Virus record (IMG/VR): IMGVR_UViG_3300017745_000054
Coordinates: 1-25,222 of that record
Length of the DNA stretch: 25,222 bases
Source: a virus
Strand: one strand, 5' to 3'
Below the pieces are notes generated by a model, which did not search any database, was not told the DNA's origin, and saw nothing but the letters and a program-made list of their open reading frames with translations. A program made the translations under genes and the position numbers. Position 1 is the first letter of the stretch; the number at the start of each line of letters is the position of its first letter. Shown here piece by piece: positions 3,236-25,222 of this stretch.

Positions 3236-4074
3236 TGCCCGTCACCACATTCGATCCCTCTGAAGGCCCCTCTGAGGAGCAGATGGCTGCTGAAGCCAAT
3301 GCTCTTGAGCAGGGCGAAAAGATCGCCCAGTTGCAGTCCGAGGATCGCGACCGCAGATACCAAGAAGTCGAAAGCTCCAACGAAGACGCTGAACTTATCG
3401 GCGGGAAATTTAAGAACCAGGATGATCTTTTGAAGGCTTATGAAGAGCTGCAAAAGAAGCTCTCTAATCCTGAATCCACTGATGAAGCTGTAGAAGCTGA
3501 AGAGGAATCCACCGAACAACAGGTGGAAGAAGAGGTGACTGAAGAGACTTCCGAAGTCGATGAGACCGTCCAGTACATGCAACAATTGGGTGAGGAGTTT
3601 GGCTCCTCCGGTGAACTGTCAGAAGAGGCTATTGACAAACTTGGATCTATGGATTCCAAGGAACTGATCAAGGCTTACCTTCAGTACAATGCAAAGACCC
3701 AAGCCCAAACACTGCAGCAGTCTGCTGTCACTGACATCCAGGCTTCTGTAGGTGGTGAAAAAGCATATTCTGAGATGATTTCATGGGCAAGTAATAACCT
3801 TGGTGAATCTGAAATTGCAGATTTTAATGCTGTTACGGCTACTAATAACCCCGTAGCTATTAAGTTTGCCGTTCAGGCTCTCAACGCCCGATACAAAGAA
3901 GGCGCTGGAAGTGAAGCCGATCTGATTACTAGCGGAAAGCGTGCCCCCTCTGTGCAGGGCTACCGCTCTCACGCTGAACTCTCACGTGATATCGCTGATC
4001 CTCGTTACTCGAGGGATCCTGCATTCCGTGCAGATGTAGAGAGGAAACTCTCTGTGTCCCCTGATCTTCTCTGA
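3235..4074 (+). CDS. 9: Capsid assembly (scaffolding) protein, T7 gp9-like
   Basis: 279 aa, near T7 gp9 (about 307 aa). Scaffolding proteins guide capsid subunits into procapsids around the portal and leave before or during packaging. The sequence has a typical scaffold plan: an acidic, charged N-terminal half, with a Glu/Ser/Thr-rich tract at about residues 80-110, a motif LIGGKFKNQDDLLKAYEELQ near residue 54, and a helical, more basic C-terminus. The C-terminal segment AELSRDIADPRYSRDPAFR resembles the conserved ending of T7-type scaffolds that contacts the capsid protein. The gene overlaps the previous stop by one base and is followed by the 179-base gap before the capsid gene. Confidence 0.9.
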   Translation: MPVTTFDPSEGPSEEQMAAEANALEQGEKIAQLQSEDRDRRYQEVESSNEDAELIGGKFKNQDDLLKAYEELQKKLSNPESTDEAVEAEEESTEQQVEEEVTEETSEVDETVQYMQQLGEEFGSSGELSEEAIDKLGSMDSKELIKAYLQYNAKTQAQTLQQSAVTDIQASVGGEKAYSEMISWASNNLGESEIADFNAVTATNNPVAIKFAVQALNARYKEGAGSEADLITSGKRAPSVQGYRSHAELSRDIADPRYSRDPAFRADVERKLSVSPDLL

Positions 4075-4094
4075 TCTGACAGAACTGGTGTTAA

Positions 4095-4113
4095 GGGAGG
4101 TTCGATCCCTCCC
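4095..4113 (+). other. Hairpin resembling a tRNA T-arm
   Basis: GGGAGG-TTCGATC-CCTCCC forms a perfect 6-bp stem. Read as tRNA it gives an ideal T-arm (five pairs, GTTCGA loop), followed by bases that could be a 3' acceptor strand and an A. No matching D-arm or anticodon arm is visible upstream. No T-run follows, so it is not a standard intrinsic terminator. It may be a terminator-like or processing hairpin, or a remnant of a host tRNA 3' end. Confidence 0.5.
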
Positions 4114-4133
4114 CTGTCTATTGCCTACTGAGC

Positions 4134-4170
4134 CCTGTACGCAGGATAACTCTTTAGGTGCTAGCGCCTA
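4134..4170 (+). other. Short hairpin and near-palindrome in the scaffold-capsid gap
   Basis: CCTG-TACG-CAGG (4134-4145) forms a 4-bp stem with a tetraloop. TAGGTGCTAGCGCCTA (4155-4170) is a 16-base palindrome with a single T/G exception. Together with the hairpin at 4095 they make this gap rich in dyad symmetry. The structures could be RNA stems in the capsid mRNA leader or protein-binding sites on DNA; the sequence does not decide which. Confidence 0.45.
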
Positions 4171-4201
4171 GTCGATGGCCCAAATCGGCAAACCTTACAT
4201 A

Positions 4202-4211
4202 GTTCTAGAAC
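4202..4211. other. 10-base perfect palindrome upstream of the capsid gene
   Basis: GTTCTAGAAC is a perfect inverted repeat just before the possible promoter at 4214. A regulator or polymerase contact is possible. A palindrome this short can also occur by chance. Confidence 0.3.
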
Positions 4212-4213
4212 GT

Positions 4214-4242
4214 TTGACCAAGATCATATTTGCCTATTAACT
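4214..4242 (+). promoter_or_regulatory. Possible sigma70-type promoter before the capsid gene
   Basis: TTGACC at 4214-4219 matches five of six bases of a -35 box. The AT-rich stretch after it offers TATTAA (4235-4240, 15-base spacing) or TTAACT (4237-4242, 17-base spacing) as weak -10 boxes. The leader to the capsid ATG at 4254 is AT-rich and has no Shine-Dalgarno sequence. A separate promoter for the most abundant virion protein is plausible, but T7-like phages usually use their own RNA polymerase for late genes, whose promoter I cannot identify here. Confidence 0.3.
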
Positions 4243-4253
4243 AACTTAAAACA

Positions 4254-5255
4254 ATGACTACCCTTAACAACTTTGTCGTCCAGAACGGCGTAAACACTTC
4301 TACCCGCTCTGCTGATTACGACGTCCGTTACGCAACGGCGCTTAAGGTCTTCTCTGGTGAAGTCTTCAACGCTTTCAACGACGCAACCATCTTCAAGGGC
4401 CTTGTGCGCTCCTACAGCCTCCGTGGCGCTAAGAGCAAGCAGTTCCTGCTGACTGGCAAGTTGGGTGCTGGCTACCACACCCCTGGTACGCCCATCCTCG
4501 GAGACGCTGGACTGAAGTCCAACGAGAAGACGATCGTCATGGACAACCTGCTGACCAGCAGCCAGTTTGTGTACGACCTGGATGAGATCCTCAGCCAGTG
4601 GTCAGCACGTAGCGAGATCTCGAAGCAGATCGGTGAAGCTCTTGCCCTCCACTATGACGAGCGCATCGCGCGTGTCTTGGCTAAAGGCGCTACTGAGTCT
4701 TCCCTCGTTGACGGCGAGCCTGGTGGTTTCCAAGTCAACATTGGCTCCGGTAACACCAACGATGCTCAGGCAATCGTAGACGGCTTCTTTGAGTGTGCCG
4801 CAGTTCTCGACGAGCGTTCCGCCCCTGCCTCCGGCCGTTGCGCGATCCTCAGCCCCCGCCAGTACTACTCCCTGATCTCCTCAGTGGACACGAACATCCT
4901 GAACCGCGAAGTCGGTAACAGCCAGGGTGACATGAACAGCGGCAAGGGTCTGTACAGCATTGCTGGCATCCGGATCTTCAAGTCCAACGTGCTCGCTAGC
5001 CAGTACGGCAAGGACGCTACTGACAACGCTGCTGTCGGTGGTGAGAACAACGACTACGAAGTCGACAACTCAGCCCTCGCCGGCCTCGTCTTCCATAAGG
5101 AAGCTGCTGGTGTTGTTGAAGGTATTGCTCCTTCAATCGAAACTACTTCTGGTGACTTCCACGTCCAGTATCAGGGCGACCTGATCGTGGGCAAATTGGC
5201 TATGGGCGCTGACACCCTGCGTGTCTCCGTCGCTGGCTCTTTGCAAGCTGCTTGA
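4254..5255 (+). CDS. 10: Major capsid protein, T7 gp10A-like
   Basis: 333 aa, matching T7 gp10A (344 aa). It forms the icosahedral head with the HK97 fold. The N-terminal third contains LKVFSGEVFNAFNDATIFKG and the LRGAKSKQFLLTGKL segment, followed by HTPGTPILGD and VYDLDEILSQWSARSEISKQ; these are typical of podoviral capsid proteins. The C-terminus (GDFHVQYQGDLIVGKLAMGA, then DTLRVSVAGSLQAA) resembles the gp10 ending. The gene stops with TGA immediately followed by an in-frame TAA, and no slippery heptamer is visible near the end, so the T7 10B frameshift product seems absent. It lies between the structured gap and a GC-rich hairpin pair, the arrangement expected for a separately controlled, highly expressed gene. 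Confidence 0.95.
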   Translation: MTTLNNFVVQNGVNTSTRSADYDVRYATALKVFSGEVFNAFNDATIFKGLVRSYSLRGAKSKQFLLTGKLGAGYHTPGTPILGDAGLKSNEKTIVMDNLLTSSQFVYDLDEILSQWSARSEISKQIGEALALHYDERIARVLAKGATESSLVDGEPGGFQVNIGSGNTNDAQAIVDGFFECAAVLDERSAPASGRCAILSPRQYYSLISSVDTNILNREVGNSQGDMNSGKGLYSIAGIRIFKSNVLASQYGKDATDNAAVGGENNDYEVDNSALAGLVFHKEAAGVVEGIAPSIETTSGDFHVQYQGDLIVGKLAMGADTLRVSVAGSLQAA

Positions 5256-5918: not shown

Positions 5919-8900
5919 TGGCAGCAATCAGTCAAGTAATCCCCAATTTACTAGGGGGTGTTAGTCAACAACCCGACCCGCTGAAACTACCGGGTCAGGT
6001 AAGAGAAGCTGAGAATGTCATCCTTGACCCCACCTTTGGTTGTAGGAAACGCCCTCCCACTCAGTTCGTAAACCAACTATCCACTGATGTACCCGAGGGT
6101 GCCAAGTGGTTCAATATCTTCCGTGATCAGAATGAGCGGTATGTGGTCTGCATATATCGCGAGACGTCTTCTACACGTATCCGTGTATGGGAAGCAGATA
6201 CTGGCTCTGAACGTACCGTATCTATTGAAAGTAGTGCTGGTGCTTATCTCGATGTCAGTGCAGCGAGGAAGATCAACCCACTAACTATTAACGACTTCAC
6301 CCTCCTCTGCAATACAGAGAAGCTGGTGACCATGTCTAACAGCACTGTTGACGAGGCTAAGGCTGAAGCTCTTATTGTTATCCAGCAGGTTGCTTACAAC
6401 ACTGCCTACCAAGTTGACTTTTTAAAAGATGGTCAGAACTTGACCCAAGAAAAGGTCTACAAGGCAACCCAGCTAACGGTCAGTCCTGGCTCGTTTGAAG
6501 ATGAGGATGACGACTCCTGCACCTTCCAGGCTAGTGAAACCTTTAGTGAGGATGGGTCCGGTAATAAGCAAGGACTGGGGTTCACTCTTACCACCACGTG
6601 CTCACCGACCTTGGTAACCACAGAGGTCGACGGTGCTTCCTTCCCAACAGCCGTAACAGCATCTATCCCCCAGCCACAGTTGTATTTTACGGCTGCTCAT
6701 GGCAGTGCGGATTCATACGCGCCAGGTTCATACCTATACCAGACTGTCACCACAAGCAATGGCAACTTAACTATAAGAGTTGAGGCTCGTGTTAGTAAGA
6801 AGTTAAATACAGCACTCTCTGGTAATCGTTACGATCTATCTAGTGCAAGTATCTCTTCTTATAACACCAGTAAAACTAACTGGGCTGTTGGTAATGGCGG
6901 TCAACACTCTCAAGGTGGATCGACTGCTACTTACACAGTTTCCTCAGTTGGTGAAGGTCAGGGATCATCAGAGTTCAACTACAAGTCTGTGTATCAGACC
7001 CGTGTGACTCTTAATAACGGCGGCATTGATTGGCGTGTGGGTGACACTGTTTCCGTCACTATGGCTGGTAAGCAGTACACCGTCACGGTGCAGGGAGAAG
7101 ACTTCGGTTACTCCTACGCATCAGAAGCCACTATCTCCTTTACAACGCCTACAGATACTACATCTGGGACGCTGAGAGTTGGTGACATCGTATCTGGCCT
7201 TACAGCCGATATTAACGCCCTTGCTGATTACACAGCTACTCCAGTGGGTAACATCATCCACGTACAACGTACAGATGATCGGGACTTCAACATCCAGACC
7301 CGTGGTGGCACTGTCAACAACGCCCTGTATGGCATTAAGAGCAGCGTCAACGATGTGAGCTTGCTGCCTAATCAGTGTGTTGCTGGTGTCGTGTTGTTGG
7401 TGCGTAACTCTGCAGAGAGTGATGCTGACGATTACTACGTCAAGTTCAAGCCAGCCTCTGGTGATATCCCCGGTCAAGGTGCTTGGGAGGAAACTCACAA
7501 GCCTGGTATCAACACCGACCTGAACCCAGCCACGATGCCCCATGTCATGGTGCGTGAGGCGGACGGTACCTTCACGGTGCGCCCTCTCACCGCTGAGTTT
7601 GATGAGGCCCTGTATTGGGCACCTCGGGATGTAGGCGACGACAACAGCAACCCTGAGCCCTCCTTCGTGGGTCAAACCATCAAGGACCTGTTCTTTTTCC
7701 AGAACCGCTTGGGACTTCTGTCTGAAGACTCTGTAGTGCTGTCACAGCCTGGTGATTACTTCAACATGTTTGTAGGCTCTGCCATCGCTGTAAGTGATGC
7801 TGACCCCATCGACATGGCGGCTAGCTCTACTAAGCCTGCCACCCTCAAGGCTGCCCTAGGTACCCCTAAGGGCTTGCTCCTGTTTGCTGAGAACTCCCAA
7901 TTCCTCCTGTCCACCTCTGATGCTGCCTTCGGACCGTCAACGGTGAAGATGAGCGAGCTGAGTTCTTACAGCTACAGCAGTGAGATCTTGCCTCTAGAGA
8001 CAGGTGTATCGATCATGTTTGCCACTGAGGCAGACACCTTTTCAAAGGTCTATGAGATGGCAGTCGACTCAATCGACAACCGTCCCATCGTCTCTGAGAA
8101 CACTCGAATCGTGCCGGAGTACATCCCACCTGGTCTGACAGTCTCTGCCTCTAGCTCTAATAACTCTCTGGTCATCTTTGGGGACGGCTCCGAAACCCTG
8201 TATACCTTCAAGTTCTTTAATGCTGGTAATGAGCGGAGTCTGGCTGGCTGGTCCAAATGGATCATGCCGGCTCCTGTTGAGTCTGTTGGGTTTGACCATG
8301 ACACCGGCTACCTGGTGCTGCGTAACAACGGCTCTCACGTTCTCTGTAAGTTGGAGATGCTGGACGATCCGCGTACTTCTCCTATCAATGCTTTTGGTAG
8401 AAAGTTTACACCCCGTCTTGACTTCTCTCTCTTTAAATCTCAGACAACTATTGAGGATACGACTGACAGTTCTAAAAAGATTGTCCGCTTTCCCGATGGT
8501 GCATTTGTAGAGAACGCACAGCCCAACATCATCCTTACTCTTGACGGTAACTCTACGCTGTACCGCAGCCCTGAGATTGAAGAAGATGCCACCGGATACT
8601 TCATCACAGTAGATGAAAACCTTGCCGAGGCTGACTTCATTCTTGGTCTAGAGTTTACCATGAAAGTTGTACTACCTTCTTTCTATGTAGTACAAGATAA
8701 GAAAGCTGATCGTAAGAACATCCCTATGATCAATAGGGTCTACATTGACCTCTATTACTCAGGACGCTACGAAGCTAACTTGAGTCGTAAAGGTTATGAC
8801 GACCAGATCATCGACCTGGATGTTACCGACGCTGATATCTACTTTGCAAACGATGCAGCCATTGATGAAGTAACTACCCGTGAGGTCCCGGTGTATTGCC

Positions 8901-9013
8901 GTGGAGATTTCACAACACTCACCATCACAGCTCCTGACCCCCTACCAGCTTCAATCACCTCGTACCGCTGGGAGGGTATGTACAACGACCGAGGCGTATC
9001 CATTATCCAATGA
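5918..9013 (+). CDS. 12: Tail tubular protein B (nozzle), T7 gp12-like
   Basis: 1031 aa, clearly longer than T7 gp12 (794 aa). It builds the hexameric tail nozzle to which the fibres attach and through which DNA leaves. The start (PNLLGGVSQQPDPLKLPGQV, then NVILDPTFGCRKRPPTQFV) is the hallmark of the family, as is the central QTIKDLFFFQNRLGLLSEDS followed by SQPGDYFNMF and AVSDADPIDMAASS. The extra length appears to lie between about residues 170 and 510, a Ser/Thr/Gly-rich beta region (for example NGGIDWRVGDTVSVTMAGKQ) before the conserved core resumes. The C-terminal RYEANLSRKGYDDQ and PVYCRGDFTTLTITAPDPLP segments are also family-like. The end overlaps the next gene by 4 bases (ATGA). Confidence 0.93.
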   Translation: MAAISQVIPNLLGGVSQQPDPLKLPGQVREAENVILDPTFGCRKRPPTQFVNQLSTDVPEGAKWFNIFRDQNERYVVCIYRETSSTRIRVWEADTGSERTVSIESSAGAYLDVSAARKINPLTINDFTLLCNTEKLVTMSNSTVDEAKAEALIVIQQVAYNTAYQVDFLKDGQNLTQEKVYKATQLTVSPGSFEDEDDDSCTFQASETFSEDGSGNKQGLGFTLTTTCSPTLVTTEVDGASFPTAVTASIPQPQLYFTAAHGSADSYAPGSYLYQTVTTSNGNLTIRVEARVSKKLNTALSGNRYDLSSASISSYNTSKTNWAVGNGGQHSQGGSTATYTVSSVGEGQGSSEFNYKSVYQTRVTLNNGGIDWRVGDTVSVTMAGKQYTVTVQGEDFGYSYASEATISFTTPTDTTSGTLRVGDIVSGLTADINALADYTATPVGNIIHVQRTDDRDFNIQTRGGTVNNALYGIKSSVNDVSLLPNQCVAGVVLLVRNSAESDADDYYVKFKPASGDIPGQGAWEETHKPGINTDLNPATMPHVMVREADGTFTVRPLTAEFDEALYWAPRDVGDDNSNPEPSFVGQTIKDLFFFQNRLGLLSEDSVVLSQPGDYFNMFVGSAIAVSDADPIDMAASSTKPATLKAALGTPKGLLLFAENSQFLLSTSDAAFGPSTVKMSELSSYSYSSEILPLETGVSIMFATEADTFSKVYEMAVDSIDNRPIVSENTRIVPEYIPPGLTVSASSSNNSLVIFGDGSETLYTFKFFNAGNERSLAGWSKWIMPAPVESVGFDHDTGYLVLRNNGSHVLCKLEMLDDPRTSPINAFGRKFTPRLDFSLFKSQTTIEDTTDSSKKIVRFPDGAFVENAQPNIILTLDGNSTLYRSPEIEEDATGYFITVDENLAEADFILGLEFTMKVVLPSFYVVQDKKADRKNIPMINRVYIDLYYSGRYEANLSRKGYDDQIIDLDVTDADIYFANDAAIDEVTTREVPVYCRGDFTTLTITAPDPLPASITSYRWEGMYNDRGVSIIQ

Positions 9014-9465
9014 ACCACTACCGACCGGCCACCTTTAAGGATGGTCTGGTGGTTCTTAACCATTTACGACCAGAAGATAAAGCCGAAGTATTGGGCATGG
9101 GGCTATCAATGCTCCATGTCCCTTTTGGTGTTCTGGCTAGTGACCATGCTACCTATTTTTACGGTGAAAATGGTCAACCAGCCGGCATTGCTGGCATCGT
9201 CAGGTTAAGTCCCACCGAGGGTCAGATATGGATGCTTTGCACTCCTCTGATCACTACCAAACCTATCACTTTTGTGCGACAGGCTAAGAAGTGGCTGAGC
9301 AGTGTTGAGCGGGAGTATTCACTCCTGTGGAACTATGCAGACGCACGGAACCATGTCCACCACAAATTACTTAAGCACTTAGGTTTCAAGGCCCTACGAA
9401 CCGTACCCACGGGGCCTGAAGCTTTGCCCTACTTAGAAATCGTAAAACTATGTGCGCCCCACTAG
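9010..9465 (+). CDS. 13: Internal virion protein, T7 gp13-like
   Basis: 151 aa, near T7 gp13 (138 aa). gp13 is needed for making infectious virions with a complete tail and core. The best match is the C-terminal part: EYSLLWNYADARNHVHHKLLKHLGF parallels T7 gp13 YDTLWNYVWVGNTSHIRFLKTIGA. The whole chain looks like a degenerate acetyltransferase (GNAT) fold: an N-terminal YRPATFKDGLVVLNHL, a central strand pair (AGIAGIVRL, GQIWMLC) and the terminal LGF segment. Whether it binds acetyl-CoA is unknown and no clear pyrophosphate loop is visible. It overlaps gp12 by 4 bases and gp14 by 16 bases, as expected for the gp12-gp13-gp14 order. Confidence 0.8.
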   Translation: MNHYRPATFKDGLVVLNHLRPEDKAEVLGMGLSMLHVPFGVLASDHATYFYGENGQPAGIAGIVRLSPTEGQIWMLCTPLITTKPITFVRQAKKWLSSVEREYSLLWNYADARNHVHHKLLKHLGFKALRTVPTGPEALPYLEIVKLCAPH

Positions 9466-17161: not shown

Positions 17162-18670
17162 ATGGCGACTACTCAAAATACATATACAGGGGACGGGTCT
17201 ACCGTCCTTTTTTCTTTCACATTCCCCTATATCTCTGAGCAGGATGTATTCGTCTCCCTAGATGGTACAGAACTGGACTCAACAACTGAATACAGCTTCG
17301 CCAACGCTACTACTATTCAATTCGCTACTGCTCCTGTACAGGATGCAGCTATCCGAATCTTTCGGCAAACATCTAACGATGATGTAAAGGCAGTTTTCTT
17401 CCCTGGCTCTGCTATTCGGGCGCGTGACCTGAACGATAACTTCACCCAAGTTCTCTACTCGTCGCAGGAATCAGACGCCACGGCAGTTGACGCGGTGGCA
17501 TCGGCTTCCCAAGCCTCTACCGCTGCTGCTAACGCAGCGTCTGATGCTGCTACAGCCACAGCAGCCGTTACGGTCGCTGAGTCTGCTGCTACTCAGGCAC
17601 AGACTGACGCCTCAACCGCCTTGGCTCAGGTCTCAACAGCTCAACAAGCTGCCACCGATAGCCAAGCTGCAGCCGCTCAGGCTATTAGTGAGGCCTCTAC
17701 TGCAACTACAGCTGCCCAAGCTGCTGAGCAAAAGGCTGCTGATGCTGAGGTTGCTGCCAATAACAGCCTCGCAGCTTCCAACGCTGCAACAGTTGCCTCG
17801 AATAACGCTACAACGGTGGCTGCAGGAGCCGTCTCCACGGCCAACCAGAGTGCTACCGACGCTGCGTCCGCAGTTGCAACGGCAAATACTGCAGTAACTA
17901 CCGCAAATAGTTCAATTACAGATGCAGCAAACGCAGTATCTACCGCTAATACAGCTGAAACTACGGCAAATACAGCAGCTACCAACGCTCAAGCAGCTCT
18001 TGATGCTGTTGGTGATGCTCTTAACTATGATCTGGTCGATAACGTTGCATCCATCTCTGGATCTCCGTCGGACGGTGATGCTGTACAGGTTGTTAACTCG
18101 ACAGGTATTGAATCATTCACACCTTTGAGTGATTTGCCTAACGGATTCGTAGGTGACTCGGGTATTAATGTCCGTATTATCTACCGTAATACTCTATCCT
18201 CCTGGACTTATATTGCGTATGCAGCTAATGACCCTGATGCTCGTTATGTAGAGTCAGGTTCAAATGTATCTGAGCTGGTCAATGATGCAAACTACATCAC
18301 AGCAGTAGATATCCCGACTATTCCAACCGCGGTATCGGAGCTGACTAATGACTCTGCTTACATTACACAGAGTGACGCTCTACCTCCGACTGGTGGAACT
18401 ATCAACGGCAACCTTGTAGTTGACGGTGACCTCATCTCCTTTGGCAACGTTAGCCGGGGATCTGGTGAGATCGTCCTGAACTGCGAGGCCAATACGCATG
18501 GCGTAACTATCAAAGGCCCAGCACATAGTGCGGGGGCTACCTACACGATCACCTTGCCTGATAACACGGGTACATCTGGTCAGGTCTTGGCAACTGATGG
18601 CAGTGGTAACACGTCTTGGACGACTGTCGTAACTGACATCGACCTGGATTCTCTTCCCGCATTGCCATGA
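17162..18670 (+). CDS. 17: Tail fibre protein, T7 gp17-type N-terminus
   Basis: 502 aa against 553 aa in T7. Residues 1 to about 105 form the T7 tail-fibre attachment domain (NTYTGDGSTVLFSFTFPYIS, FVSLDGTEL, AAIRIFRQTSNDD, then FFPGSAIRARDLNDNFTQVL), which binds the nozzle. Residues about 106-280 are an Ala/Thr/Ser-rich coiled coil with many near-heptad repeats, forming the trimeric shaft. The C-terminal part carries two copies of a short motif, SELVNDANYIT and SELTNDSAYIT, and the ending ITLPDNTGTSGQVLATDGSG, common in marine phage fibres. No large receptor-binding head is present, suggesting the fibre links to other proteins such as the next gene product. It starts two bases after gp16 and overlaps the next gene by 4 bases. 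Confidence 0.9.
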   Translation: MATTQNTYTGDGSTVLFSFTFPYISEQDVFVSLDGTELDSTTEYSFANATTIQFATAPVQDAAIRIFRQTSNDDVKAVFFPGSAIRARDLNDNFTQVLYSSQESDATAVDAVASASQASTAAANAASDAATATAAVTVAESAATQAQTDASTALAQVSTAQQAATDSQAAAAQAISEASTATTAAQAAEQKAADAEVAANNSLAASNAATVASNNATTVAAGAVSTANQSATDAASAVATANTAVTTANSSITDAANAVSTANTAETTANTAATNAQAALDAVGDALNYDLVDNVASISGSPSDGDAVQVVNSTGIESFTPLSDLPNGFVGDSGINVRIIYRNTLSSWTYIAYAANDPDARYVESGSNVSELVNDANYITAVDIPTIPTAVSELTNDSAYITQSDALPPTGGTINGNLVVDGDLISFGNVSRGSGEIVLNCEANTHGVTIKGPAHSAGATYTITLPDNTGTSGQVLATDGSGNTSWTTVVTDIDLDSLPALP

Positions 18671-21333
18671 CCCTACAAGATACCGACAAGTTCCTTGTGG
18701 GTCGATCTGGAACTAATCACAGCGTTGAATCACAAGCACTTATGGCACAAGTTGAAGACACTGACCTGCTCTTGGTATCAAGGAGTGGGTCTAATTTTAA
18801 AGTGACAGGTCTAGAGCTCAAGGACTCCTTTGGTTCTGGCTCTATTAACCCTGGGGCTAATGATATCTCCACAGATATCGCCTTTCAAAGCGGTACAGGT
18901 ACAGAAGCAGACCCTTATGTTTTAGCTCCTGTAATTGTTGCCCCATACGGTGGCTCTGTATCCAGTACAGAGACCCTAACTATCATCGGCCAGACGCCAC
19001 TTACCCCTGTGGTTTGGACGGACAACAGTGTTGGTGCTGGTACAAGGTTTACACAGATTGATGGTCAGGAGACTGACGCTTCTGGTGTGTGGACAGGTAA
19101 TCTTGAGTATGCTGACATCCCTGCTAGTACTACTGATACCACGTATGTAGGCCTTCTACAGATCGGGTTGGTGTTCTTTAGTTGGACAATTGATCAGAGG
19201 GAAGTAGATACAGTCCCTCCAGCTATTACTAGCGTCTCTCTAATTGAGAATGACGCCGTTGATGCTAATAGATTCACCTCACAGGTGTTTACATTTTCTA
19301 CTAACATTGATGATGGAACACCTACAGCAGTTAAGACCATTGACGCTCACGTTGATGGGACCTTAACCAGTGAGGTTCAGTTCGTTGAACCCCTAGAGAG
19401 TTCCAGTGGGAGTAACTTAACCTTCGCTGCTGGTACGGAAATGACGTCCGTAGCTCCCGGTGATTTCTTTACGCAACCTGGACCATCGGGTACTGCAACC
19501 TGGTCTGACAATGTATCAATTGCGCCAAACTCTAGCGCCGCTGTCCGAGCACGGCCAAGTATGTTTGACGGCAATCTAACTACTCAATGCTATACAGAGA
19601 ATGATACGTTTGCCCAGATTAACTGGGACATTGGTGTTAACATTTCTGGTAAAACAATTAAGCTGTTAACTGGAAATGTAAATACTTCTCACTCTCTCTA
19701 TTTTACGGATACTAATACAGGCAGTGAGTTGTCAACCGGCGTTACGTCTGATGCTTCTGGCTTCATTGAATATGACACAGCAGCGTTGCAGTTCCCGAAT
19801 CTCGACAAGATAGGTATCCAGATGAATGAGAATAATAAAGATGTTCTCATTAAAGCGGTTTATCTAGATGATGTCATCGTTACTGATGGACAGTCGATTA
19901 TTACGACAATTACTGGGGTTACCGCCTCCGTATCTGGTACTACTATAACTCTATCCAGCACATCAGGTGGATGGATTAATGGTGTAGATGTCACTGGTCC
20001 TACGAAGTCCATCACTGCAGCTAATACCCGTCTTTATCTTAAGTTTGATAGCTCAGGTAACGTCGAAACGCTCATCAACGAGCCACAGGATCCTCCATAC
20101 ACAACCTCAGCTACTAATCCAGGTCTAACGCTTACATTCCCTGCTGTATTCCCTGACGGACAGGCTCCTGATACGGATCTACCTGAAGGAACAACACTTA
20201 CTGTTCTTGTTGTTGCTGAGAATGCGGCTGCAACTGCTGGCCCTGCTGGTGCAACGGTTCAACCTGAGATCCCTGCCCCTGCTGCTCCCCTTGCTGGGCT
20301 GACCACGCTGTATGAAGGCAACGCTTCTACCAATAACATCGTCAATGGTGTTGACCTTGCTAATAATGGGGGCTTAGTTTGGCTTAAAAATAGAGAAAAT
20401 GGTTCTACCAATCACTGGCTAGTTGATACAGTCCGTGGTCTTAATTCAGCATTGCTTACTAACAGCAATACCAGTCCAATTAATGCTACCGTAGTAAGTT
20501 CTTTTAACACAGACGGTTTTACAATCCCTAGCAACAGCTCTGTTAATACCCAACCACTTGATTATGTTGCTTGGACATTAGGTAAAGCTGAAGGCTATTT
20601 CGACATTGTTGAATTTACAACACCTCAGCAAGTTGCAACTGTCAACCATTCGCTCGGTTCTGTACCAGGATTGATCATTGTTAAATACTTAAGTGGTAAC
20701 GGTGATTGGTTCACGTACCACCCGAGTATCGGTAATAATTCCTACTTAACGTTGAACTCGAGTAATGCAATAGATGCAACTTTTGATGTATGGAATGGTT
20801 TTTCACCAACTGCAACCCAGTTTCAATACAACGCTCTTGTAAATGGAGGCGGTACATATATTGCCTATTTATTTGCAGAGGATACGCCTGGTGTAATTAA
20901 ATGTGGTTCCTACTCTGGCGCTGGTACTACGAATCAGATTGATGTTGGATTTAAACCTCAATGGGTTCTAATAAAAAGTATGGGCTCTGCTGATTGGCTG
21001 ATCTTTGATAACAAGAGAGGTGCAACCCCCAACACAGACCCCTTGTATCCCAATCGGGACTATAAAGAAGGTGGGACCAGCTTTAGTGCGGGAGGTTCTA
21101 ATCACATCCGCTTTAACGATAATGGTATGGAAATTAACGGCTCAGGAGGAGTCCTAAACGACTCGAGCAGTAATTACATCTATGTTGCTATCGCAGAGCC
21201 CTCTGCTGCTGTGAGTCAGACTCAATCTCAGTTTGACGCCACTTCTGAGAGCTTTGAAACTTTTGGATTAAATACAGCTATCTATCAAGGTAACCAAGCT
21301 CAGCAAGCATTAGATAACTACTACAACTCATAG
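18667..21333 (+). CDS. Large tail fibre or adhesin-like structural protein
   Basis: 888 aa. The N-terminus holds two tandem repeats of about 25 residues, DTDKFLVGRSGTNHSV and DTDLLLVSRSGSNFKV, a short module often found in cyanophage fibre proteins. The middle (about 60-540) is Ser/Thr/Gly-rich beta structure with Ig-like stretches. The C-terminal third contains three related segments: GGLVWLKNRENG (about residue 567) followed by HWLVDTVRG, GLIIVKYLSGNGDWFTYH (about 669) and QWVLIKSMGSADWLIFDNKRG (about 766). They share a strand with Val/Ile-Lys followed by a tryptophan and look like repeats of one beta domain known from marine phage fibres. Its start overlaps the gp17 stop (ATGA), so the two are probably co-translated and act together in host attachment. 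The exact receptor is unknown. Confidence 0.75.
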   Translation: MTLQDTDKFLVGRSGTNHSVESQALMAQVEDTDLLLVSRSGSNFKVTGLELKDSFGSGSINPGANDISTDIAFQSGTGTEADPYVLAPVIVAPYGGSVSSTETLTIIGQTPLTPVVWTDNSVGAGTRFTQIDGQETDASGVWTGNLEYADIPASTTDTTYVGLLQIGLVFFSWTIDQREVDTVPPAITSVSLIENDAVDANRFTSQVFTFSTNIDDGTPTAVKTIDAHVDGTLTSEVQFVEPLESSSGSNLTFAAGTEMTSVAPGDFFTQPGPSGTATWSDNVSIAPNSSAAVRARPSMFDGNLTTQCYTENDTFAQINWDIGVNISGKTIKLLTGNVNTSHSLYFTDTNTGSELSTGVTSDASGFIEYDTAALQFPNLDKIGIQMNENNKDVLIKAVYLDDVIVTDGQSIITTITGVTASVSGTTITLSSTSGGWINGVDVTGPTKSITAANTRLYLKFDSSGNVETLINEPQDPPYTTSATNPGLTLTFPAVFPDGQAPDTDLPEGTTLTVLVVAENAAATAGPAGATVQPEIPAPAAPLAGLTTLYEGNASTNNIVNGVDLANNGGLVWLKNRENGSTNHWLVDTVRGLNSALLTNSNTSPINATVVSSFNTDGFTIPSNSSVNTQPLDYVAWTLGKAEGYFDIVEFTTPQQVATVNHSLGSVPGLIIVKYLSGNGDWFTYHPSIGNNSYLTLNSSNAIDATFDVWNGFSPTATQFQYNALVNGGGTYIAYLFAEDTPGVIKCGSYSGAGTTNQIDVGFKPQWVLIKSMGSADWLIFDNKRGATPNTDPLYPNRDYKEGGTSFSAGGSNHIRFNDNGMEINGSGGVLNDSSSNYIYVAIAEPSAAVSQTQSQFDATSESFETFGLNTAIYQGNQAQQALDNYYNS

Positions 21334-21793: not shown

Positions 21794-22024
21794 ATGGCCA
21801 AGCGTGCCGGCGAAGAGCTCTTTGATGAGCTCCATGCCCTTCTAACTACTGAGCTTGTTGCTCGTATTAAGTCTGGGGAAGCCAGCACGGCTGACCTTCG
21901 TGCCGCCATTGATTGGCTATCGAAGAATGACATCACGGGTGTGCCTATTTCAGGTTCACCCCTGGCGTCTTTGGCCGGTCTGATACCCGAGCTCACATTT
22001 GAAGATGTACAAGGGAGTCTCTGA
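21794..22024 (+). CDS. 18: Small terminase subunit, T7 gp18-like
   Basis: 76 aa against 89 aa for T7 gp18. Small terminases recognise phage DNA and present it to the large terminase motor. The segment LLTTELVARIKSGEASTADL, then RAAIDWLSKNDITGVPI, is a pattern I associate with small terminases of many podoviruses: a helical N-terminus, an SGEAS/T turn and a second helix ending in a short loop. The gene position after the fibre and holin-like genes is that of T7 gene 18. Unlike most genes here it has a clear Shine-Dalgarno (GAGG seven bases before the ATG). The large subunit is not in the window and is probably downstream. Confidence 0.7.
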   Translation: MAKRAGEELFDELHALLTTELVARIKSGEASTADLRAAIDWLSKNDITGVPISGSPLASLAGLIPELTFEDVQGSL

Positions 22025-22302
22025 TGGCACCTAAACGTTCATCAAACCCTGGCAAGTCTGCAAAGTATTACGCCAAGAACCCTAAGGCCAGGGCAAAGAA
22101 GAATGCAGCGCAGCGTAAGCGCAATAAAACCTCCGCCAATAAAACATACCGGGCTGAGCTGAATGCAGCTCGTCGCAAGGACGGTAACTACGGCAAAGGC
22201 GGAGCTGACTACAGCCACACAAAGTCCGGAAAGCTTGTGCGTGAGAGCGCAAAGAAGAACCGGGCACGTAATGGGTCGGGCGGTAAATCGACCAAAAAGT
22301 AA
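22024..22302 (+). CDS. Highly basic small phage protein
   Basis: 92 aa, very rich in Lys and Arg. It starts MAPKRSSNPGKSAKYYAKNP, continues with a Lys/Arg/Asn-rich helix region (KARAKKNAAQRKRNKTSANK, TYRAELNAARRK), and has a Gly-rich part YGKGGADYSHTKSGKLV before the C-terminal NRARNGSGGKSTKK. I recall similar proteins, with the GxxxSHTKxGKLV and NRARNG motifs, in many marine phages, but their function is not established to my knowledge. The charge suggests nucleic-acid binding. It has a good Shine-Dalgarno (AAGGGAG six bases before the ATG) and shares one base with the terminase stop. Confidence 0.7.
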   Translation: MAPKRSSNPGKSAKYYAKNPKARAKKNAAQRKRNKTSANKTYRAELNAARRKDGNYGKGGADYSHTKSGKLVRESAKKNRARNGSGGKSTKK

Positions 22303-22323: not shown

Positions 22324-22593
22324 ATGGACACGCCCCGAAGCCTCATGCACGAACTCCTTACCTTTCGCGCGTCTGATGCGAAAAGAATGTGGAGGGAGAA
22401 TATCTTTAATCGGGACGGAAACGCCTGCACATACTGCGGCTCTACAGAAAATCTAACTATTGATCATATTCACCCCAGGTCGAAGGGTGGTGACAGATGG
22501 TCAGCCTCTAACTGCACGACTGCTTGTCGTTCCTGTAATCAACTTAAAGGATCCATGCGGGTAGAGGATTTTATTCTACTTAAATCTGCTTAA
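22324..22593 (+). CDS. HNH endonuclease
   Basis: 89 aa, a single HNH domain. Zinc-binding pairs are C35-x-x-C38 (CTYCG) and C68-x-x-C71 (CRSCN); the catalytic core includes D47-H48 in LTIDHIHPRSKGG, N63 in SNCTTAC and N72 in SCNQLKG, all in canonical spacing, so the nuclease looks intact. Free-standing HNH proteins in phages are either homing endonucleases or partners of the terminase during packaging. The location two genes after the small terminase allows both. It is compact and lacks an added DNA-binding domain such as AP2 or NUMOD, which slightly favours a packaging or processing role over homing. Its stop shares one base with the next ATG (TAATG). Confidence 0.88.
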   Translation: MDTPRSLMHELLTFRASDAKRMWRENIFNRDGNACTYCGSTENLTIDHIHPRSKGGDRWSASNCTTACRSCNQLKGSMRVEDFILLKSA

Positions 22594-23414
22594 TGGCATT
22601 CCCTTCAAATCCTTCTAGGGGTGATACCCATGAAGAGGATAGTTCAACTTGGCTATATAACGGCGTAAGTTGGGACCGTTCAGTTATTCGTCCTGGAAAC
22701 AGTACGTCTTATGGTGTTAAGTCCAGTGGTCTAACTGCTGAAGATCCCATCCTTGTTGGTGCGGACGGTGGTTATGAGTTCACTGGCGCATTTGTAGACC
22801 GTACTTCGGGCACTACAGGTAACCTGATCTCTAACAACGTTCAATACACCAACGAGCAGGCTCAGTCTGGTGTGTGGAGGCGCTTTGGGTTCTCCAGTGC
22901 TCAGCAAGTCTTAAACGATGTTGCTTACTTCCCTATATCTCACCATCACTTTGACCAGACCAAGGGTTTATTTGGTGGCGAGCATTTACCTGCTGGAGTA
23001 ACAAATCTCTTTGACTTTGACGATACGGCTCTGTCTAGTGCTGTCACTACTGGTGATCTCCAGTACACAGCTGCTAACGGTTCCTACGATTTTAGAGAGT
23101 GCCTAGTTGGTGATCTGGCTAAGGTTCGTTTCTCTTTTAACGTTACCCCTCAACAAGCTAATACAACCCTCGAGGTTGGCTTGATCTGGGCTACTCGTGA
23201 TGCCAATGATGCGGTGACCTTTACGTTCCCACTGCTTACTCAGCCTATCTTCTACGGCACCGGTACGGTCGGTAAATCCTTCCTGAACCGTGTCGAGATG
23301 TCGGCCTACTTCGCTTCTAGTGAAGACCTTAATGCCCGTGTTCTACCCGCTATTCGTGCGGACAATGAAGTCCTGATTCAACCCCTGACCACTCTCTGCA
23401 CGATTGTCCGATGA
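22593..23414 (+). CDS. Putative virion structural protein (fibre, decoration or horn candidate)
   Basis: 273 aa (about 29 kDa). The start MAFPSNPSRGDTHEEDSSTW, then LYNGVSWDRS, is a short module seen at the start of many marine phage structural proteins. Further on are beta-rich segments, a His-rich patch (PISHHHFDQTKG) and a C-terminal domain with AKVRFSFNVTPQQANTTLEV and GKSFLNRVEMSAYF. No enzyme motif is visible. It overlaps the following adhesin-like gene by 4 bases, so the two are likely made together as parts of one structure. Cyanophage Syn5 encodes capsid-horn proteins in its late region, one of about 29 kDa as I recall; similarity in size and place is suggestive only. Confidence 0.6.
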   Translation: MAFPSNPSRGDTHEEDSSTWLYNGVSWDRSVIRPGNSTSYGVKSSGLTAEDPILVGADGGYEFTGAFVDRTSGTTGNLISNNVQYTNEQAQSGVWRRFGFSSAQQVLNDVAYFPISHHHFDQTKGLFGGEHLPAGVTNLFDFDDTALSSAVTTGDLQYTAANGSYDFRECLVGDLAKVRFSFNVTPQQANTTLEVGLIWATRDANDAVTFTFPLLTQPIFYGTGTVGKSFLNRVEMSAYFASSEDLNARVLPAIRADNEVLIQPLTTLCTIVR

Positions 23415-24997
23415 TTAAAGTCACCCGTAACCGAGCCGGTAACTGTGTCAACTTTATTGGCACATCTAACCCTGCTTATTGGAACGCCTGCCTGTCTGCA
23501 GAGGTGGACACAGAGGATAACACTCGTATCAATATCATTAACGACCTGCGTACTGCAACCGTTAACGAGCCTGTCTACGAGTTCTACAAGATCCCATACA
23601 CAGAGTTTCAAGACCGTGACGGTAATGCGTTTGCATCTGCTGCGGACGCTGCTGCCTACATCAGTGTTGAAGCCAACGTCGCTTCGTCTACAGGACAGTT
23701 CGTACTGTCTGATAGCGACTCGATGAACTTCACGCTAGATACTACTGAAACTACAATCCTAATGGACAATGGCGACTCGTTCGCCCTTCACTCTATTCGG
23801 GCTGTTGGTAACTCAGAAGGTCACATTGATATCTTGCAACACACTGGTGACCTCAGCATTTTTGAAGGACTACGTGTTGCCAACACTACCATTAATGGTG
23901 CCAATGTTACTGATAATCAGGCTGCTGCTGTTAATGAGCTAAACGCTCTCTTCCAACATAGTGGCGGTACAACAGGATCAGCCCCAGTAATTACATCAGC
24001 TACCACAATTAACCTTACCACTGGAAATACTCTTAACTATGAGTTAGTAGCTACAAACGGTGTTGCCTACGAATGGTCTAATCTACCTAGTGGTGTGGCT
24101 ATCGTTGACGGTAATGTAAGGAAGTTAATTGGTGGATCTAGCCTAGTGGCTGGTACTTACACAATCACAGCCAAGGCTATTAACTACTTTGGAGAAGATA
24201 CGAAAACAATCAGCTTGGTTGTTTCCGCTCCTCCTTTTTCAGATACTAAGTCTGTTAGGTTTGTTAGTGGTGACTACTTAGGCGCTAATGCTTCTCGTGC
24301 AGATGCAGCACTTGGTAGGTCAGCTAATGGAGCTGGTGCGACTGATGCCTGGACTATCTCCTGGTGGTTCAAAGCTCCCACTAGCTCTAATAACAAGCAA
24401 ACCATGTTCTACTTCGGTGATCATGATGAAGCCAACGGTGGTAGAATTAGGGTACGTTTTGTTGGATCCTTAGACAGCTTACAATTTCACTATGGATCGG
24501 ATAACAACAATATTATCTGGGCCAGTGCTCACAATGTCTTACCTAGCGAGCAGTGGAAGCATATCGCAATTACATATGACGGAGGTGCCACTGGGTCGTC
24601 AAGTGGAAGCATAAGCAGCTATTACAGCCGCTTTAAGTTTTTCGTTGATGGTCAGGAGATTACTTCAGGTGGTTCGTTCAACAACGACAACTACGGATAT
24701 ACGGGGTCAATTGATCCTGATAATTTCCGAGTTGGACGTGAGGTTTCGAGCGACTACATGAAACCCAATGCTTATGTTGATGAGATGGCTGTATGGTCAT
24801 CAGATCAGTCTGCCAACATCTCTGATATTTACAACAGCGGCACTACTCACGACTTGTCGCTTTTAACTAATTCCCCAGATCACTACTGGCATATGGGGGA
24901 CGGTGATACCTATTCAATTATTCAAGACAATATTGGCGATGCTCATTTTGTTATGTATAACATGACAGCCGCTGACATTGTAAACGACGTTCCTTAA
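23411..24997 (+). CDS. Adhesin-like virion protein with Ig-like and LamG-like domains
   Basis: 528 aa. Residues 1 to about 190 form an N-terminal region (VTRNRAGNCVNFIGTSNPAY, then a DUF-like beta part), probably for attachment to the virion. Residues about 193-275 look like a putative-Ig domain (SAPVITSATTINLTTGNTLN, LPSGVAIVDGN, AGTYTITAKAINYFGEDTKT). Residues about 277-520 resemble a concanavalin-like LamG domain: AWTISWWFKAPTSSNNKQTM, EQWKHIAITYDGG, FKFFVDGQEITSGGS and YVDEMAVWSSDQSANISDIYNSG are characteristic strands of that fold. LamG domains bind carbohydrates or proteins, so it is a candidate receptor-binding or surface protein. It is unusual to find such a gene after the small terminase, far from the main fibre genes. 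Fold confidence is good, role inferred. Confidence 0.75.
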   Translation: MIKVTRNRAGNCVNFIGTSNPAYWNACLSAEVDTEDNTRINIINDLRTATVNEPVYEFYKIPYTEFQDRDGNAFASAADAAAYISVEANVASSTGQFVLSDSDSMNFTLDTTETTILMDNGDSFALHSIRAVGNSEGHIDILQHTGDLSIFEGLRVANTTINGANVTDNQAAAVNELNALFQHSGGTTGSAPVITSATTINLTTGNTLNYELVATNGVAYEWSNLPSGVAIVDGNVRKLIGGSSLVAGTYTITAKAINYFGEDTKTISLVVSAPPFSDTKSVRFVSGDYLGANASRADAALGRSANGAGATDAWTISWWFKAPTSSNNKQTMFYFGDHDEANGGRIRVRFVGSLDSLQFHYGSDNNNIIWASAHNVLPSEQWKHIAITYDGGATGSSSGSISSYYSRFKFFVDGQEITSGGSFNNDNYGYTGSIDPDNFRVGREVSSDYMKPNAYVDEMAVWSSDQSANISDIYNSGTTHDLSLLTNSPDHYWHMGDGDTYSIIQDNIGDAHFVMYNMTAADIVNDVP

Positions 24998-25011
24998 TTA
25001 TTATTATCATT

Positions 25012-25197
25012 ATGTCTGCTGAAACTTTTAACGCACGCTCTTTGAAGGGTGCTGATCTTCTCGTGCCTTTCGGTTATGCCAAGGGTGTGACTGTGTCTAC
25101 TCCTAACGCTTCCTACACCGTTGAAGAGTTGACCAACTTGATCGCTGTTGCTCAGAAGCGGCCTCAGAACGGTGGCGTAACTGTCACCGAAGCATGA
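25012..25197 (+). CDS. Small hypothetical protein
   Basis: 61 aa, function not recognised. It begins after an AT-rich leader (TTATTATTATCATT) without a Shine-Dalgarno. The chain shows a short polar N-terminus, a beta-like part (LLVPFGYAKGVTVSTPNASY) and a helix (TVEELTNLIAVAQKR), ending GGVTVTEA. No membrane span or cysteine. A small virion or head-decoration protein is possible given its neighbours, but nothing in the sequence proves it. Its stop overlaps the next start (ATGA). Confidence 0.6.
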   Translation: MSAETFNARSLKGADLLVPFGYAKGVTVSTPNASYTVEELTNLIAVAQKRPQNGGVTVTEA

Positions 25198-25222
25198 GCC
25201 TCTACCGCAATATAAACAAGCG
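25194..25222 (+). CDS. Start of a further small gene (partial)
   Basis: The ATG overlaps the previous TGA stop in the ATGA arrangement used throughout this operon. Only nine full codons are visible: MSLYRNINK. Small basic proteins starting MSLYxNI are, as I recall, common in cyanophage late regions, but with so few residues this remains tentative. Confidence 0.45.

Follow-up and report, generated by a model that had tools for sequence, protein, structure and literature searches.

A two-gene module, probably encoding an adaptor-plus-adhesin fibre, in place of the horn block in a relative of cyanophage Syn5

Introduction

Among T7 gp17-type tail fibres (PF03906 anchor), two-piece adaptor systems are represented by gp37 of phages SP6 and K1-5. 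In cyanophage Syn5, gp53 and gp54 are horn proteins and gp58 is the knob protein (PMC10575957). The interval between gp51 and gp59 of Syn5 comprises gp52–gp58, of which gp53 and gp54 have masses of 47.6 and 65.3 kDa, respectively. S-TIP28, a second cultured phage in which this locus was found to carry the horn block, has homologues of gp52–gp57 (gp53 is 87% identical to that of Syn5), followed by a 63-residue protein, two further small genes, and then gp59 and the large terminase gene. The product of gp52 is not known to be a horn component. Engineering of Syn5 has been established (PMC8776855).

In the Prochlorococcus siphovirus P-SS2, the products of the adjacent genes gp067 and gp068 were detected in purified particles, at averages of 9.5 and 6 virion peptides, respectively (PMC2784084, Table 2). 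Here we describe a pair of genes, A and B, which is distantly related to this P-SS2 pair and occupies the horn slot in a close relative of Syn5.

Results

Organization of the locus

The window analysed here is a whole virus record of 25,222 nt (IMG/VR record IMGVR_UViG_3300017745_000054). It comes from a close relative of Syn5, with BLAST identities of 68% for the portal and 78% for the major capsid protein. The genes run in the order of small terminase, gp50 homologue, HNH endonuclease, A, B, C and the start of a gp59 homologue (Table 1), and the large terminase gene lies beyond the window end. An earlier note on this DNA had described two coupled genes after the small terminase, followed by small genes, an arrangement that is confirmed here. 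A and B overlap by the tetranucleotide ATGA, in which the ATG of B lies within the TGA of A.

Table 1. Features at the 3' end of the window
Feature	Position	Strand	Description
Small terminase, Syn5 gp49 homologue	21794..22024	+	93% identity; PF11123 2.2e-14, phrog_891 8.9e-18, BLAST
Syn5 gp50 homologue, small basic protein	22024..22302	+	93% identity; phrog_6437
HNH endonuclease, Syn5 gp51 homologue	22324..22593	+	82% identity; PF01844 1.2e-12; directly adjoins the exchanged cassette on its upstream side
Gene A	22593-23414	+	273 aa, 29.7 kDa
A N-terminal module, ~residues 1-49	22593..22739	+	Proposed anchor; motif xFPxNPxxGD...YNGxSW
A C-terminal domain, residues 60-273	22770..23411	+	Conserved jelly-roll-like adaptor domain (predicted); AlphaFold2, alignment, >200 relatives
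Gene B	23411-24997	+	528 aa, 56.9 kDa
B N-terminal docking region (putative), residues 1-182	23411..23956	+	Two beta-plus-helix repeats; class co-segregates with A
B putative Ig-like domain, ~residues 190-272	23978..24226	+	AlphaFold2 model, Foldseek and a match to a PDB profile
B laminin-G / ConA-like lectin domain, ~residues 280-528	24248..24994	+	Proposed adhesive tip
Gene C	25012-25197	+	61 aa; 82% identical to S-TIP28_61; retained cassette flank, gp58 position
gp59 homologue start	25194..25222	+	First codons, MSLYRNINK; rest beyond the window end

Both flanks are kept around the pair, with homologues of gp47–gp51 (47–93% identical) upstream, and C and gp59 downstream. As the S-TIP28 homologue of C, the 63-residue S-TIP28_61, follows gp57, A and B replace exactly the gp52–gp57 interval of Syn5 and S-TIP28, including the horn genes gp53 and gp54.

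The stretch from gp51 to the terminase gene is a variable cassette site. Its length in relatives ranges from 105 bp (L089, L091 and L092 in our numbering of loci) to 5.4 kb in Syn5. The cargo may consist of small genes alone, one or a few in number; L056 has a 660-residue fibre-like protein here, P60_48 is a collagen-like fibre, and other genes occur as well. In other relatives the horn block is reduced to small genes or missing.

Most relatives carry a gene of 66–76 codons in this slot (L063–L075, L056, L057, L065, L067, L068 and L050, where it is CBP2_50). One set of these small proteins shows homology to the knob protein gp58 over the N-terminal half of the latter (hhalign 3.4e-11), which suggests that gp58 represents a common small protein in extended form. 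C itself was rejected as a relative of gp58 (BLASTP E = 7.6; hhalign probability 0.2%), and its 20-residue YTVxxLxxLI similarity to the small proteins in the same slot of L063–L075 (42.6% probability) is suggestive only. In two phage contigs, a transaldolase-like gene of 221 codons, identified by eye only, lies between the HNH and large terminase genes (L079, 1117-1782; L080, 3646-4311).

Elsewhere in the window, the gp17-type fibre gene is located at 17162, away from A. It is directly followed by a second large fibre-like gene (18667-21333) with a DUF7483 domain (PF24299, 4.1e-50), which brings the number of further adhesin candidates in this phage to at least two.

Domain structure of A and B

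The A protein gave zero matches to Pfam or PHROGs, and a PDB sequence search found nothing. The AlphaFold2 model consists of a disordered N-terminus and a β-rich C-terminal domain, with a pLDDT above 90 over most of the latter. A fold search of the PDB yielded only weak jelly-roll look-alikes, namely 4-1BBL, CBM22 and birnavirus VP2 (query TM 0.15–0.27), which were not used, and matches in BFVD, including VpV262, were discarded at a TM below 0.5.

In the predicted structure of B, N-terminal β-plus-helix repeats are followed by an Ig-like and then a laminin-G domain. The matches of the N-terminal part are confined to PHROGs of unknown function. The laminin-G domain matches Laminin_G_3 (PF13385) with an E-value of 1.1e-10 and 42.3 bits against a curated cut-off of 27.6, and Foldseek relates its fold to pikachurin LG3 and pentraxins with a target TM of about 0.6. 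The 29- and 57-kDa sizes and the laminin-G domain given in the earlier note hold, whereas its Ig-like domain is indicated by the AlphaFold2 model, Ig-type Foldseek matches and weak per-repeat sequence matches to an Ig-like PDB chain, with no Ig match in Pfam.

Comparison with the horn and knob proteins

The earlier note had likened the pair to the Syn5 horn, for which it gave proteins of about 65 and 29 kDa; a 29-kDa horn protein was not found. No BLAST match was obtained between A or B and gp53, and the hhalign probabilities were 0.2–0.6%. Likewise, the comparison with gp54, including its conserved C-terminal ~85 residues, was negative by BLAST and hhalign, with a probability of at most 0.6%, and BLAST found no homologue of gp55 within the window. 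A full-length gp52 profile gave nothing against A and B except a short similarity at the N-terminus of A. Judged from these comparisons, neither A nor B is a horn protein, and with gp58 likewise unmatched by C, the kinship to gp53, gp54 and gp58 for which the earlier note had suggested a profile comparison was not borne out.

Relatives of gp53 were found in many unrelated phages (L200–L226, L124, L125 and L126), for example Maribacter phage Panino, ctPCi537 and Rctr197k. They often lie beside one or two large proteins that have nothing in common but the gp54 C-terminal ~85–100 residues, and a gp55 homologue is near nearly all of them. This recurrence in very different phages indicates that the horn block is itself mobile and widespread, forming a module separate from A-B.

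The proposed N-terminal anchor of A

The N-terminus of A, a proposed anchor, varies in kind by lineage. It is collagen-like in L009 and gp17-type in L136, and the window and L199 both have the FPxNP type. A of L136 starts with the T7 tail-fibre anchor (PF03906, 5.9e-14), and the next gene after the pair encodes a pectate-lyase-type tailspike that also has PF03906; together they make A-B of this phage very probably a tail fibre. Moreover, A of the L012–L019/L039 group has a T7-tail-fibre-like N-terminus (hhalign probability 91.8%, 7.5e-7), whereas nine other A N-termini were negative. In A of the window, PF03906 was found neither by Pfam search nor by hhalign.

Instead, the first 31–44 residues of the window A match S-TIP28_55 (45% identity) and Syn5 gp52 (36%). 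The same FPxNP module is common to the N-termini of Syn5 gp52, S-TIP28_55, P60_48 and ORF 7571 of L056, all encoded at the same locus. Between the window A and the L056 protein it is 48% identical (E = 3e-9), and the 660-residue L056 protein has an otherwise different body. In S-TIP28, S-CBP3 and S-CBP4, the module also begins proteins whose genes come immediately after that for the tail fibre. Being present both at the horn locus and downstream of the tail fibre, the module does not decide the site of A on the virion.

Distribution and pairing of A and B

A profile search of IMG/VR recovered at least 204 relatives of A, of which 80 were kept; a scan of 84,980 prokaryote species genomes confirmed none in prokaryotes. 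The carriers of A-B include T7-like podoviruses, the cyanomyoviruses S-CREM2, S-B68 and MC09, and the siphovirus S-CRES1; in these four named phages the homologues are annotated as hypothetical only. In a set of 83 A genes, some from near-identical contigs, a B N-terminus lies directly downstream in 80; of the other three, one is the last gene of its contig and two do not have this downstream neighbour. In L043, a short B-type N-terminus (184 residues, 3982-4536) lies 4 kb upstream of A (8470-9441), an exception in gene order. The conservation of the pair across many unrelated phages argues against a chance observation, and A-B is an uncharacterised, widely traded two-gene module.

Two classes of A C-terminal and B N-terminal domains were distinguished, and they always match: class I A is paired with class I B at 26 loci and class II with class II at 16, with zero crosses; of two further loci, one belongs to neither class and the other is cut. 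In the window, a class I A domain is directly followed by a class I B domain. By contrast, the A N-terminus and the B tip are freely swapped; the laminin-G tip is present on both B classes, and other tips occur on class I in ten phages. A distance-matrix test on the laminin-G subset gave r of about 0.9 throughout, which does not separate the evolution of docking from that of the tip, and class co-segregation was therefore used as the evidence for docking. Such strict matching is the pattern that a socket between the A C-terminal and B N-terminal domains would give, and on this linkage only, we infer that the two domains are in contact.

Between the two classes of A, hhalign shows homology at 3.6e-9, and between class II A and P-SS2 gp067 at 1.8e-6, so that gp067 joins the A family transitively, by way of class II. 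The N-terminus of B is homologous to that of P-SS2 gp068 (hhalign 8.3e-12). A and B look like external virion proteins, and distant homologues of both were present in purified particles.

Genes adjoining A-B in other phages

The pair is located directly after the portal gene in L005, L009, L010, L023, L025 and others, adjoins portal or terminase genes in the L005, L009 and L025 groups and many non-T7-like phages, and follows the major capsid gene (MCP-gp90) in S-CRES1. A recognised homologue of terminase, portal, small terminase or major capsid protein was counted by hand in the stretch examined at no fewer than 35 of 71 loci. A place beside portal or terminase genes, or after a capsid gene, suggests a head or neck position of the pair in these phages.

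Discussion

We propose, at a probability of roughly two in three (0.66), that A-B is a plug-in fibre of adaptor plus adhesin, encoded in the horn slot and probably attached to the tail. A and B would be two parts of an interchangeable virion fibre, in which the short N-terminus of A would fix the fibre to the particle. The jelly-roll-like C-terminal domain of A may serve as a socket for the N-terminal repeats of B, and the putative Ig-like domain and the laminin-G domain of B would make up the outer tip, by which the fibre would hold on to the cell surface or its glycans. Judging from its fold, the laminin-G domain of B is the likely receptor-binding part. The module has taken the place of the Syn5-lineage horn block, at a locus that would accept cassettes for surface structures. 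As to the attachment, the tail is about an even bet, with the horn vertex and the capsid or neck each considerably less probable.

The earlier note had envisaged either a horn-like external structure or an extra host-binding device. It had the locus right and, broadly, the kind of product; its horn reading has partial support, from the position and the short motif common to gp52 only. The PF03906 anchor on A of L136 and the T7-tail-fibre-like N-terminus in a group of others make an extra host-binding device better supported than a horn.

The strongest alternative is a horn replacement, in which the gp52-like N-terminus of A would dock at the capsid vertex that lies opposite the tail and A-B would project from there like a horn. 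Such a placement is conceivable, as the N-terminal motif of A is common to gp52 of the horn block; the pair also fits exactly into the gp52–gp57 interval, L056 joins the same N-terminus to another body at this site, and pairs elsewhere adjoin portal, terminase or capsid genes. However, neither A nor B has homology to gp53, gp54 or gp55, gp52 is not known as a horn component, the FPxNP motif also occurs on proteins encoded downstream of the tail fibre, and other T7-like relatives carry a tail-fibre-type anchor, which together make this reading rather unlikely.

Somewhat less probable still is a decoration of the capsid surface or neck, with many A-B copies on the hexamers or neck providing a weak general adhesion as Ig-like head decorations do. 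The putative Ig-like domain and the laminin-G domain would suit this role, as would the position of the pair directly after the portal gene or, in S-CRES1, after the capsid gene. Nevertheless, gene order is a weak guide to position, A anchors of the T7-tail-fibre type exist, and no similarity to known decoration proteins was found among PHROGs, Pfam and PDB sequences. That A and B are non-structural or morphogenetic genes that merely have fibre-like domains is very improbable, given that the P-SS2 homologues are virion proteins and that tail-fibre, collagen-like and laminin-G modules occur on the same proteins.

The A-B module gives a direct comparative handle on the function of the Syn5 horn, as in this close relative the horn block is cleanly replaced by a probable lectin-type adhesin module. 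The exact replacement of the horn genes by an unrelated, widely traded pair makes this spot of the genome look like a socket for interchangeable outside parts. A bolder and doubtful extension is that the gp51–gp59 slot supplies external structures that can be swapped at one defined place on the virion, which the FPxNP module would recognise; a lectin-tipped fibre would then stand where Syn5 has its horn. If true, the horn would be one allele among swappable vertex appendages, which implies a role in binding or the environment. More broadly, A-B represents a large uncharacterised marine phage adaptor/adhesin family across podo-, myo- and siphoviruses, whose independent exchange of anchors and tips may bear on changes in cyanophage host range.

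Compared to the Syn5 horn block gp52–gp55, A-B shares the slot, the flanks and a short N-terminal motif (A and gp52), and both combine a conserved component with a variable large protein; however, gp53–gp54–gp55 recur elsewhere as a module of their own, to which A and B have no detectable homology. With the T7 gp17-type tail fibre A-B shares the adaptor-plus-tip logic, and A of L136 even starts with the same anchor, whereas A of the window has no PF03906 and is encoded after the small terminase. Adjacent homologues of the pair occur in the myoviruses S-CREM2 (gp129–gp130), S-B68 and MC09 and the siphovirus S-CRES1 (gp91–gp92), with 53–60% identity in the A C-terminal domain; they differ in the N-terminus of A and in a much longer B (about 1100–1950 residues). 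The P-SS2 pair gp067–gp068, found in virions (PMC2784084), likewise has another N-terminus on gp067 and another tip on gp068 (1739 residues), and corresponds to class II A and the N-terminus of B.
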